37,189 nt of DNA from an uncultured cyanobacterium (lineage in GTDB: Bacteria > Cyanobacteriota > Cyanobacteriia > Cyanobacteriales > FACHB-T130): positions 1-37,189 of the forward strand of contig CAKZHE010000242.1 of assembly GCA_936920195.1 (NCBI GenBank), written 5' to 3'. Numbering within the stretch: the stretch's first letter is position 1; each line of letters starts with the position of its first letter. Below, piece by piece: positions 13,770 through 37,151 of this stretch. Both the position numbers and the translations under genes were made by a program. A model generated the notes under the pieces. The model saw nothing but the letters and a program-made list of their open reading frames with translations, did not search any database and was not told the origin of the DNA.

Positions 13770-13830
13770 GGTCTAAACCATTTGCCCAAGTAGGGTAACG
13801 CCAAGGGCTTCGCTTCGCTAAAACTCAGAC

Positions 13831-13922
13831 AGGACTTACGCAATACCTCTATTCGTAGGGTGTGTTAGCGCAGCGTAACGCACCATAAACGCTATTATAT
13901 GCGGAGCAACTGCGTAAGTCCT
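13831..13922. mobile_element. 92-bp MITE with AGGACTTACGCA ends
   Basis: Perfect terminal inverted repeats AGGACTTACGCA (13831-13842) and TGCGTAAGTCCT (13911-13922), extending to GACAGGACTTACGCA on both sides. The interior is too short to code. Confidence 0.75.
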
Positions 13923-14021
13923 GTCAGATTTTTGCTATTCACCAACCAATGATCTTAACCCGCCGCTACATCAATCATGGTTAATAACTGATGGACATAA
14001 TATCATCTGGATTTGGCATAT

Positions 14022-33932: not shown

Positions 33933-33967
33933 TTTTATTTTCCCCAAATGGTAATATATTTGTTACT

Positions 33968-34071
33968 CGTTCCCAGGCTCTGCCTGGGAATGCCCATTGA
34001 GAGGCTCTGCCTCGGATGATAAAGCGAGGCAGAGCCTCTCGATATCGGTTCCCAGGCAGAGCCTAGGAACC
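33968..34071. repeat. nested palindromic repeat (AGGCTCTGCCT)
   Basis: An outer inverted repeat GTTCC(C/T)AGGCTCTGCCTGGGAA encloses an inner perfect 16-bp stem, GAGAGGCTCTGCCTCG (33999-34014) with its complement at 34025-34040 and a 10-base loop. It lies 36 bp past the stop of the AAA-GAF gene and could act as a transcript end. Confidence 0.75.
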
Positions 34072-34096
34072 AGTTTAAGGCGATCGCCCTCATTTT

Positions 34097-34264
34097 CTAC
34101 TTGCCAAACAGCAATTTGAGGTTCAAGGCTATCTGGACAAGTGCCACCACAATTGCTATTGGGGGCGCAATGTAGAGGCAGAATTTACGCAGTCTGTCAG
34201 TCACGGGTTTTAGGAGACTAAACAGCAACTCTGCGATACTATAAAGAAAGGAAAGCCTAGACAT
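34097..34264 (-). CDS. 55-residue membrane peptide (hidden small ORF)
   Basis: An ATG at 34264 is preceded by GGAGGAAAA, a near-ideal ribosome binding site, and opens 55 codons ending in TAG at 34097-34099. The peptide starts MSRLSFLYSIAELLFSLLKP, then a basic turn 'TDRLRKF', then a membrane segment 'LYIAPPIAIVVALVQIALN' and a final 'LKLLFGK'. It has no recognised family. The strong ribosome binding site, the coherent amphipathic and membrane layout and the structured leader argue that it is real. It diverges from the DUF4351 ORF across a perfect hairpin. It could be a small toxin-like or regulatory membrane peptide; that is inference. Confidence 0.6.
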   Translation of the reverse strand: MSRLSFLYSIAELLFSLLKPVTDRLRKFCLYIAPPIAIVVALVQIALNLKLLFGK

Positions 34265-34286
34265 TTTTCCTCCATTTAAAAATAAG

Positions 34287-34311
34287 CCTTGGGGATCGCA
34301 CCCCTCAAGGC
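34287..34311. repeat. bulged hairpin in the leader of the small membrane ORF
   Basis: GCCTTGGGG and CCCCTCAAGGC pair around 'atcgca' with one bulge. It lies about 20 bp upstream of the small ORF start on the minus strand. Confidence 0.5.
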
Positions 34312-34319
34312 CAAAGTAA

Positions 34320-34372
34320 GCTAACGCAAGACACCCGTAGATCTCGCAAATCTACGGGTGTCTTGCGTTAGC
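34320..34372. repeat. perfect 23-bp hairpin between divergent small ORFs
   Basis: The left arm 34320-34342 (GCTAACGCAAGACACC...GTAGAT) and right arm 34350-34372 are exact complements with a 7-base loop, CTCGCAA. It sits 29 bp upstream of the DUF4351 start and 56 bp upstream of the small membrane ORF start, so it could be an RNA structure or a protein-binding palindrome. No transposase-like ends or target duplication are seen. Confidence 0.85.
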
Positions 34373-34400
34373 CATAATTCATTTAAGTCAGGAGGAAATT

Positions 34401-34655
34401 ATGCGAGAATCCGTGATTTACCAAGAAATTTTCCAAGAAGGACATACCGAAGGACGTGCTGAAGGTCTGAAAACAGAAGCATTGTCAATGGTTATTCGCC
34501 AGATGACACGCCGCCTCGGTGGATTGTCCCCGGAATTAGCGCAGCAAATTCAGCAGTTATCCCTCAACCAACTAGAAAATTTGGGTGAGGCGCTATTAGA
34601 TTTTTCTCAACCGGGGGATTTGGTGGCTTGGTTGGCAGCTAATCAAGCCAGCTAG
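34401..34655 (+). CDS. standalone DUF4351 protein (Rpn-family C-terminal domain)
   Basis: The 84-residue protein matches only the C-terminal part of the large Rpn/YhgA-like transposase-nuclease proteins common in cyanobacteria. 'MRESVIYQEIFQEGHTEGRAEGLKTEA' is the usual charged linker, and 'VIRQMTRRLGGLSPELAQQIQQLSLNQLENLGEALLDFSQPGDLVAWL' is DUF4351. The PD-(D/E)XK nuclease domain is absent. Yet the ORF has a strong AGGAGG 5 bases before the ATG, so it may be expressed as a free regulatory domain. Separate expression of a C-terminal part is known for some Rpn proteins. The alternative is a truncation remnant. Confidence 0.75.
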   Translation: MRESVIYQEIFQEGHTEGRAEGLKTEALSMVIRQMTRRLGGLSPELAQQIQQLSLNQLENLGEALLDFSQPGDLVAWLAANQAS

Positions 34656-34661
34656 CAAATA

Positions 34662-34701
34662 TTGCCGAAGGCATACGCAATAGCGCCTATGCCTTCGGCA
34701 A
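34662..34701. terminator. 14-bp hairpin after the DUF4351 ORF
   Basis: TTGCCGAAGGCATA (34662-34675) and TATGCCTTCGGCAA (34688-34701) form a perfect stem with a 12-base loop, 6 bp past the stop. There is no clear U-run, so termination is uncertain. Confidence 0.5.
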
Positions 34702-34746
34702 CAACCCTAAATATTCTACTTTCCCCAAACTGGGGATGATGGAAAC

Positions 34747-34832
34747 GGAGAGGGTGGGATTTGAACCCACGTTGAAGTTGCCCCCAAACAGCATTTCCAG
34801 TGCTGCGCCTTCAACCACTCGGCCACCTCTCC
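34747..34832 (-). tRNA. tRNA-Ser (GGA)
   Basis: On the minus strand the 86-base sequence folds as a class II tRNA. The acceptor stem is GGAGAGG with CCTCTCC; the D arm is GCCGAGTGGTTGAAGGC. The anticodon stem CAGCA/TGCTG holds loop CTGGAAA with anticodon GGA (reads UCC and UCU). There is a long variable arm, and the T arm contains GGTTCAAATCC. CCA is not encoded. Confidence 0.96.
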
Positions 34833-34907
34833 AAAACTTCGGCTTTACAACTATAGCAAACCAATCCGGAAATTGTCTACCCTCATTTAGCCTAATTTAT
34901 CATAAAC

Positions 34908-35032
34908 AGGACTTACGCAAGCACTTATTGTCATCCTGAGCGAAACGCAGTGTAGCGAAGGATCTCGGAGATTCTTCACTTCGCTGTCGCTCCGTTCATA
35001 ATGACAGAATCTCGTTAAAGTGCGTAAGTCTT
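34908..35032. mobile_element. 125-bp MITE with AGGACTTACGCA ends
   Basis: AGGACTTACGCA (34908-34919) pairs with TGCGTAAGTCTT (35021-35032), one mismatch. Inside is a second inverted repeat, TGTCAT ... ATGACA, around the 'cctgagcgaa ... gaaggatct' repeat seen in many bacteria. It lies 85 bp upstream of the NACHT gene. Confidence 0.75.
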
Positions 35033-35117: not shown

Positions 35118-37151
35118 ATGCTAATCGATCCTACTGGTCTTACTACCCTTGTTACTACAGAAATCAACAAACTCCTGATCAAAAACCTTTGGGAAGGCGG
35201 CGGTAAAGCAGCTAAGTGGATGGGTATAACGCTAACTGAAGATATCCGACAGCTATTTTTTAACGCATCCAAACAATATTGGGAAAATTATGAAAAGCGC
35301 CATTGTTTGCTGAAAGTGCTAGGAATGCGCGAACCCGTTCGGTTAGAATCAATTTATACTGAAGTTCAGTTTTTAGATGATCGCGATATCTTAAACTTTA
35401 CTTCTGTTGATAGTTTAGAAAAAGCTTTTCGCAAAACTGCCCAGCGTAGCTATCAGCGGCAAGATAATTCCAAGCAAGCAGGTTTGCAAGCGGCTAAAGA
35501 CAAGCAATATTTAATGGTTTTGGGCAGTCCAGGATCGGGGAAATCTACTTTTTTGCGCCGTATTGGTTTAGAAGCATTCAAAGGTAGTAAGGGAAATTAT
35601 CAGCATGATTGCTGGCCTGTGTTTGTGGAACTGAAAAGGTTTAACAATAGTGAGATTTCCCTAGAAAAATTTATTGTTGAAGAATTTAAAACCTGTCGTT
35701 TTCCCACGCCAGAAGCACAAACTGAAAAGTTATTGAAAGAAGGTAAGTTACTGATTTTATTAGATGGGCTAGATGAAGTTCCTACCAAAAATTTAGATGC
35801 GGCAGTTACTCAAATTCAAGACTTTGTAGATCGCCATCATCAAAATCGCTTTATTATCTCTTGCCGCACCGCTGCCTATCGCAGTGGCTTTCGCCGCTTC
35901 AGTGACGTGACTGTAGCCGAATTTGATGACGATCAAATTGAAGGGTTTATCAATAATTGGTTTGGTTCAGAGCCGGATAAACAAGCAGGCACGGCGAAAA
36001 AGTGTTGGGAAATTTTGCAGAAGGAAGAAAATCAAGCTGCTAAGGAATTAGGTCAAACTCCCTTATTACTAACTTTTCTGTGTTTGGTTTATGACCGTTC
36101 CCAAAATTTTCCAGATAATCCCAGCGTCCTCTATCGTAAGGCTTTGCGAATCCTTTTAGAAGAGTGGGCATCAGAAAAGAGAATTTTGCGGGATGAAATT
36201 TATAGCGGTTTGCATACGGAGTTACAAGAGATTTTGCTATCCGAGATTGCCCATAAGGGATTTCAAGCAGATCGGTTATTTTTTGAGGAACGAGAAATTA
36301 TTCAAGATATCAAAGGCTTTTTGGCAGGTAATTGCAACGCGCCCCAGAATTTAGATGGCAAAGCTGTTTTAAATGCCATTGCGGTTCAACAAGGTATTTT
36401 GGTAGAACGGGCGGAAGATATTTATTCTTTTTCCCATCTGACTTTGCAGGAATATCTAACGGCTCAATATATTGATGACAATAGGCAAGTTGAGCAGTTA
36501 GTGACTCAGCATTTAACTGATAAACGCTGGAAAGAGGTGTTTTTGCTAGTTGCTGGATTAATGCGCGGCGGGGCTGATGAGTTGCTGTTGCAAATGGAAA
36601 AGCAGGCACAAACGTTGATTGATACTCCGAAGTTAAAGGCTTTGCTGAATTGGGCAGAAGAAGAAACGGTAGGATCTGAAGGTAATTTTAAACCTGTTGG
36701 GAAAAGAGCGATCGCCAACGCTAGCGTCTACGCCTACACCTACGCCATCGCCTACGCCAACGCCATCGCCAACGCCTACGCCTACGCTATTCCTGGCTAT
36801 ATTACTGAGTCTATAGATTATTATCGCATAATGGATGAATTAAAGGTTTTTAAAAACCTAAATTTTCAGGCAGCGATCGCCAGACTAGAAGAATTAAACA
36901 CCAAAATTCCAGACAAAGATCGACCTCTGAATGAACGGAAAGAATTTGCCGATCAACTCTTGCAAACTTACTTGCAAACTTTTAATCTCGATCTCGAAAT
37001 GGTAACTTTATCTAAAGCAGAATTGCAGGCATGGGAAGATTACTTTTATGCCAATTGGCTCATCATCGAATGTCAGCGAGCAGCGGTGCGGGTGTCGCCC
37101 TCAACTTGGGCCGCAATTGAAGAAAGAATGCTGCTACCACCTCAAGATTAA
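35118..37151 (+). CDS. NACHT-domain NTPase (NLR-like)
   Basis: A 677-residue STAND protein of the NACHT group, several of which act in anti-phage defence in bacteria. An N-terminal helical domain (~1-110) precedes the NTPase: Walker A GSPGSGKST (136-144), Walker B 'LLILLDGLDEVP' (211-222, Asp216, Asp219, Glu220), and 'RFIISCRTAAY' (sensor). The winged-helix signature is 'FSHLTLQEYLTAQY' (~440-455). A low-complexity Ala/Tyr/Asn tract (~532-558) is encoded by hexamer repeats. The end, 'ELQAWEDYFYANWLIIECQRAAVRVSPSTWAAIEERMLL', is a short helical C-terminal domain usual for cyanobacterial NACHT proteins. No effector gene is visible downstream within the window. A TATAAT at 35081-35086 may be its -10 box. 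Confidence 0.9.
   Translation: MLIDPTGLTTLVTTEINKLLIKNLWEGGGKAAKWMGITLTEDIRQLFFNASKQYWENYEKRHCLLKVLGMREPVRLESIYTEVQFLDDRDILNFTSVDSLEKAFRKTAQRSYQRQDNSKQAGLQAAKDKQYLMVLGSPGSGKSTFLRRIGLEAFKGSKGNYQHDCWPVFVELKRFNNSEISLEKFIVEEFKTCRFPTPEAQTEKLLKEGKLLILLDGLDEVPTKNLDAAVTQIQDFVDRHHQNRFIISCRTAAYRSGFRRFSDVTVAEFDDDQIEGFINNWFGSEPDKQAGTAKKCWEILQKEENQAAKELGQTPLLLTFLCLVYDRSQNFPDNPSVLYRKALRILLEEWASEKRILRDEIYSGLHTELQEILLSEIAHKGFQADRLFFEEREIIQDIKGFLAGNCNAPQNLDGKAVLNAIAVQQGILVERAEDIYSFSHLTLQEYLTAQYIDDNRQVEQLVTQHLTDKRWKEVFLLVAGLMRGGADELLLQMEKQAQTLIDTPKLKALLNWAEEETVGSEGNFKPVGKRAIANASVYAYTYAIAYANAIANAYAYAIPGYITESIDYYRIMDELKVFKNLNFQAAIARLEELNTKIPDKDRPLNERKEFADQLLQTYLQTFNLDLEMVTLSKAELQAWEDYFYANWLIIECQRAAVRVSPSTWAAIEERMLLPPQD
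36709..36788. repeat. hexanucleotide repeat tract in the NACHT gene
   Basis: About thirteen WWCGCC-type hexamers (TACGCC, AACGCC, ATCGCC) starting at a GCGATCGC site. They encode alternating Ala with Tyr, Asn or Ile. The unit is in frame, so copy change would alter length without frameshift. Confidence 0.85.

Follow-up and report, generated by a model that had tools for sequence, protein, structure and literature searches.

A single-copy perfect hairpin at the edge of an apparently truncated rpn-type (DUF4351) gene in an uncultured cyanobacterium: a possible palindromic scar

In Escherichia coli, the rpn genes are described as encoding a C-terminal small protein, the antitoxin RpnS, that is translated from within the gene, and in some species RpnS is also a separate gene annotated as DUF4351 (PMC10327210). 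Two further described phenomena concern palindromes: template switching, which can make and mend perfect stems (PMC8794818), and GTAG-tagged REP palindromes, which are known in cyanobacteria (PMC3733652). The locus described here lies in a 37,189-nt contig of an uncultured cyanobacterium (CAKZHE010000242.1, analyzed whole and referred to as the window) and resembles each of these systems in part. Like RpnS, its open reading frame (ORF) corresponds to the C-terminal DUF4351 part of the protein and has a start codon and a Shine-Dalgarno-like site of its own. The experiments on RpnS were done on E. coli genes, in a paper whose main text does not contain the word "cyanobacteria" (PMC10327210), whereas at our locus the full-length part appears to have been lost and a hairpin stands at the junction. 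As in hairpins attributed to template switching (PMC8794818), the stem is a perfect reverse complement that could arise in one step, but it has no ancestral one-arm state for comparison. As with the GTAG-tagged REPs (PMC3733652), we are dealing with a short intergenic palindrome, in a genome with its own palindrome family that begins with GTAG; unlike them, the hairpin has just one copy, and the bases before it are GTAA rather than GTAG. The features of the locus are as follows.

34097-34264, minus strand: ORF of 55 codons with a Shine-Dalgarno-like sequence (by eye); no homologue found
34286-34311, no strand: second, shorter stem (9 bp, 8-nt loop) that ends eight bases left of the hairpin
34320-34372, no strand: perfect hairpin, single copy; arms 34320-34342 and 34350-34372 (23 nt each), loop 34343-34349
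34374-34400, plus strand: apparent ancestral rpn-type coding sequence, in the frame I-I-H-L-S-Q-E-E-I before the Met, with AGGAGG at 34390-34395
34401-34655, plus strand: solo DUF4351 ORF (84 amino acids; PF14261), the C-terminal (RpnS-like) piece of an Rpn-type protein

The original prediction of a perfect 23-bp hairpin without a mismatch, with a minus-strand ORF at 34097-34264 and a plus-strand ORF at 34401-34655 on either side, is confirmed. All 23 pairs of the stem are complementary (100%), and with the 7-nt loop (CTCGCAA) the structure spans 53 nt; it is a stem with a loop, not a gap-free palindrome. The longest perfect arm in 60 dinucleotide-preserving shuffles of the window (loops of 0 to 20 allowed) was 8 to 12 nt, versus the 23 nt observed. 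As RNA, the 53-mer has a predicted energy of −42.0 kcal/mol on the plus strand and −43.8 kcal/mol on the minus strand, and the 136 nt around it fold at −70.7, against −26.7 ± 3.4 in shuffles (z = −12.8). An RNA-family search around the hairpin returned below-threshold matches only, caiA and mir-10 among them; the mir-10 microRNA (Rfam RF00104) scored 30.6 bits against a gathering cutoff of 47.5 and was taken as a chance match. An assembly chimera is unsupported, as the flanks of the hairpin differ beyond the arms.

The original prediction allowed that the hairpin might prove to be an ordinary dispersed repeat with many scattered copies, and copies were counted. In its own genome (a draft of 5.70 Mb, 326 contigs, and 95% completeness), only the two arms themselves match the arm sequence at up to 3 mismatches. 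A search of 100 genomes for the 19-base core of the arm (up to 2 mismatches) found it in its own genome and in none of the 99 others. Among 84,980 species, in a scan that may omit records very near the window's genome, 17 exact arm bases gave four matches, all in unrelated bacteria and each to a single arm. There was no match in plasmid records, nor in viral contigs when the inner 13 bases of both arms were required. Found at a single place in its genome and absent from the 99 other genomes, plasmids, and viral contigs, the hairpin is not a dispersed repeat. It also departs from REP and MITE elements, which are defined by many copies per genome, and neither a GTAG nor a CGTC tag stands beside the stem, which is flanked by AAAGTAA on the left and CATAATT on the right.

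To the right of the hairpin, the DUF4351 ORF matches PF14261 with an E value of 1.5e-23 (83 bits; cutoff, 25). The genome holds 19 matches to this family, 18 of them over the cutoff, and the window's domain ranks 8th, scoring as well as the long paralogues. The open frames with these domains span 287 to 384 codons in 17 of the 19 cases and 102 to 104 codons in the other two, which include the window's. Nine of 10 long relatives match the Rpn family nuclease model TIGR01784 at an E value of 2e-10 or better (five over the cutoff and four below it; L102 had no match), and no Rpn N-terminal model from Pfam was detected in any of the 10. Upstream of its ATG, the ORF has AGGAGG at Shine-Dalgarno distance, and the read-through frame there (I-I-H-L-S-Q-E-E-I) aligns with I-R-Q-L-F-R-E-E-I and similar stretches of the long proteins. 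Ten of 15 local protein alignments with long relatives begin at base 34374, a single base separating them from the hairpin's end at 34372; the remaining five begin 9 to 18 bases further right, and none reaches into the hairpin. A blastx search of 33933-34400 against 15 long proteins gave no match at E values up to 1, and the missing N-terminal part can thus not be recognized to the left of the hairpin. Together, the start of homology and the blank on the left indicate that the hairpin sits at the edge of what appears to be a truncated rpn-type gene, a gene of defense type, and that its supposed right-hand promoter side is apparently ancestral coding sequence. Judging by its frame, the remaining piece retains the capacity to code for a small RpnS-like protein.

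To the left, none of 290 other genomes of the order contained a homologue of the 55-codon ORF, which also has no Pfam match and is probably not a conserved gene. The original prediction that the hairpin lies between two promoter sides is thus correct in the placement of the ORFs, fails on the right, and on the left concerns an ORF lacking homologues in those 290 genomes. The left neighbor gene has close homologues in all five other family genomes examined (76 to 79% over a C-terminal stretch; one with a stop), and downstream of its homologue at L061 the next listed plus-strand ORF is a different gene (cysK-like by eye). A short block of the left flank, 34240-34311, resembles the region preceding rlpA in two genomes from another genus (L094 and L095). 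In a comparison that scored at most two candidates per genome, similar sequence was found in 3 of 290 other genomes, namely, these two of one genus and a third in which it lies elsewhere. A degenerate pattern of the flank occurred in 10 of 388 genomes, its own included, and not at all in the reversed control. A promoter shared with rlpA was not built on, since rlpA adjoins the pattern at only one of these ten loci (G188).

We read the hairpin, with a probability of roughly 0.45, as a single-copy palindromic scar, most simply made by template switching, at the breakpoint of a rearrangement that truncated an Rpn-type (DUF4351) gene. The rearrangement would have taken away the 5′ part of the gene, its first ~200 codons. 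In short-range replication template switching, the polymerase would have briefly copied the nascent or the opposite strand and laid a reverse-complement copy beside the original, so that a single event gives a perfect 23-bp stem and its 7-nt loop; from anatomy alone, this seems the most economical one-step route to such a stem. The remaining piece would have kept its internal Shine-Dalgarno site and start codon, and the hairpin may now be the leader stem of a solo RpnS-like gene. If RNA is made, it would form a stable 5′-leader stem 17 nt upstream of the Shine-Dalgarno site, and any effect on RNA stability or read-through is likely a by-product rather than a conserved regulatory device. This scar reading draws on the homology edge at 34374, the single copy, the lack of such a hairpin at other short DUF4351 frames, and a genome that favors perfect palindromes. 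It comes close to the recent palindromic insertion suggested earlier. The pre-hairpin sequence was not found in any relative searched, and the one-arm ancestor is unseen. It could be by chance that the hairpin ends where the homology does, because few residues before the Met match those of relatives and five of the alignments start further right.

If a mobile palindromic element had a single copy left, it would be indistinguishable from such a scar. On this somewhat unlikely account, a REP- or MITE-like element was inserted, one copy is left, and the insertion and a later deletion truncated the rpn gene. The genome is rich in palindromes of similar size. A sample made up of the window and 20 further 20-kb stretches (437,189 bases) contained 34 perfect hairpins with arms of at least 14 bp, five of them with arms of at least 23 bp; the four besides the window's are copies of one dispersed palindrome, GTAGTTGGGCT..., and long perfect hairpins are ordinary in this genome. 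The GTAGTTGGGCT family has 435 half-sites genome-wide (up to 1 mismatch), versus none in the reversed control. Among 100 matches listed, 20 half-sites had no listed partner nearby (by eye; the partner of the last may lie beyond the matches listed), so not every site of the family is a full palindrome. The dispersed palindrome of these 435 half-sites (GTAGTTGGGCTTYAGCCC; e.g., L083 6125-6182) occurs in two versions of the arm, which usually agree within any one copy, and begins with GTAG, as do known REP families. Also present is a 110-bp dispersed inverted repeat at window positions 33965-34074, about 250 bases left of the hairpin, with at least 7 copies elsewhere in the genome at 96 to 99% identity. 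Elements with ends GGACTTACGCA lie at 34909-35032 and 13820-13933 of the window, and their end motif recurs in the genome sample.

The perfection of the stem says less about recent origin or selection than it might seem. The absence of a mismatch had been taken to imply recent origin or selection, an argument weakened by the GTAGTTGGGCT family, in which 16 of 19 distinct two-armed copies sampled agree between arms at one two-base position (11 with one version and 5 with the other) and 3 disagree. The comparison covers only the single position left free, the search pattern having fixed the rest, and it shows that matched arms can persist while the copies of a palindrome change. Ten hairpins of the sample were examined closely: seven besides the window's have arms of 15 to 19 bp and a terminal 12-mer that is unique in the sample, the window's hairpin being the longest of this kind. 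None of the ten lies wholly within an ORF of at least 100 codons, and two (L085 and L086) extend over the end of an ORF. A recurrent terminal motif, GACTTACGCAAG, which has 15 matches in the sample (up to 1 mismatch) versus 2 in the reversed control, resembles the hairpin end CTAACGCAAG and would suit a mobile element. Against this, CTAACGCAAG itself is confined within the 437-kb sample to the window's hairpin (2 matches; reversed control, 2), the hairpin has no second copy in its genome (up to 3 mismatches), its 19-base core is missing from all 99 other genomes, and none of the four exact 17-base matches has two arms. No clear target-site duplication is seen by eye at the hairpin, which in itself speaks neither for nor against insertion.

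The hairpin could instead terminate, or insulate from, leftward (minus-strand) transcription coming from the side of tRNA-Ser(GGA), which lies upstream on that strand at 34745-34833 and is adjoined by a NACHT-domain NTPase gene (35118-37151). A simple scan does list the hairpin as terminator-like on the minus strand, with the tail AGCTTACTTT. However, terminator-like sites in the region do not exceed those in shuffles (2 versus 1.6 ± 1.4), the minus-strand T tract is broken, and the hairpin is ~370 bases from the tRNA, with a further stem at 34662-34701 in between. The plus-strand tail, CATAATTC, contains no T tract. Usual terminator stems are much shorter than this one, and we consider a terminator or insulator quite unlikely.

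Slightly less likely still is a stem selected in the 5′ leader to stabilize or control the mRNA of the solo RpnS-like gene. The hairpin is very stable and would precede an intact Shine-Dalgarno-like site, with its start codon, by 17 nt, and the DUF4351 domain scores like those of the long paralogues (83 bits; 8th of 19), but the scan called no plus-strand promoter-like site immediately upstream and the relatives do not share the stem. In 20 stretches of relatives, picked from a list of short frames rather than at random, we found 25 DUF4351 matches in open frames of <150 codons; one in L134 (where the frame is really 353 codons) and that in L123 (which starts at a contig end) were not counted as solo. 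The scan for perfect arms (loop of 3 to 20) began 250 nt before each open frame and ended 90 nt within it. No arm of at least 9 bp was present near the start in 21 of the 23 usable short frames, and the other two had arms of 9 and 10 bp (L132 and L133). The hairpin is therefore not a conserved element of solo DUF4351 genes, none of the 23 having an arm of >10 bp. Among the paralogues of its own genome (the window's copy and L050, L055, L057, and L058 left out), 2 of 14 had a 9-bp arm near the frame start (L042 and L053) and 12 had none. An attenuator or operator, as also proposed originally, gains no support from relatives, whose short DUF4351 frames do without such a hairpin. At L117 (G008:C25:22400-25600), an intact Rpn-type gene is followed by three tandem short DUF4351 ORFs with 350-bp spacing.

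An integron attC-like recombination site is scarcely credible: GCTAAC...GTTAGC at the stem base resembles the attC core boxes, but the choice of strand at attC needs extrahelical bases and an imperfect stem, this stem is perfect (23/23 pairs) and has no extrahelical bases, and the arm lacks a second copy, a weaker point given that attC sites share only short boxes.

The scar reading leaves a solo ORF whose start can be compared with the intact genes. The start MRESVIYQ aligns to an internal position of the long relatives, with AGGAGGAAATTATG kept, and the window ORF thus appears to begin at a putative internal start of full-length rpn genes that has a Shine-Dalgarno site. The short frames at L120, L121, L122, and L124 have 9 to 13 residues before the Met, little beyond the Shine-Dalgarno region, like the window's. 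Among 40 distinct frames with the motif in the loci examined, 34 have Met at this position. The six without (L047, L052, and two each in L130 and L134) have no Shine-Dalgarno match and were excluded from the codon count; three G008 frames with Met (L098) have none either. At the third codon ahead of the Met, the 21 long frames that possess it use GAG in all 15 cases of Glu, the other six being AAG (4), AAA (1), and GAT (1). Elsewhere in the 34 frames, GAG makes up 31% of Glu codons (nominal P = 2e-8; as the genes are related, this overstates the significance). A second subfamily, in which the sequence surrounding the Met differs, used GAG in 8 of 9 frames (including one short frame) versus 29% (nominal P = 4e-4). 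GAG followed by a codon beginning with G puts GAGG at Shine-Dalgarno distance, and long cyanobacterial rpn-like genes with the internal Met thus appear to favor an internal Shine-Dalgarno codon.

No title on an internal small protein was found in the part of the literature on rpn or DUF4351 in cyanobacteria that we covered, which does not prove that none exists. A more far-reaching account, which we regard as rather improbable, is that an intragenic start for a small DUF4351 antitoxin is conserved in cyanobacterial rpn-type genes, that this unit has broken free time and again as a solo gene, severed shortly before the internal Shine-Dalgarno site, and that here the escape left a perfect hairpin now serving as a leader and insulating the gene from upstream transcription. 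As the present locus suggests, a perfect stem located at a gene breakpoint can pass for a regulatory element. The more useful lesson may be that the apparent ribosome site on the promoter side would be the fossil of an internal start. Judging from the codons preferred in two subfamilies, a second small protein may be encoded within the Rpn-type genes of cyanobacteria, as in those of E. coli.
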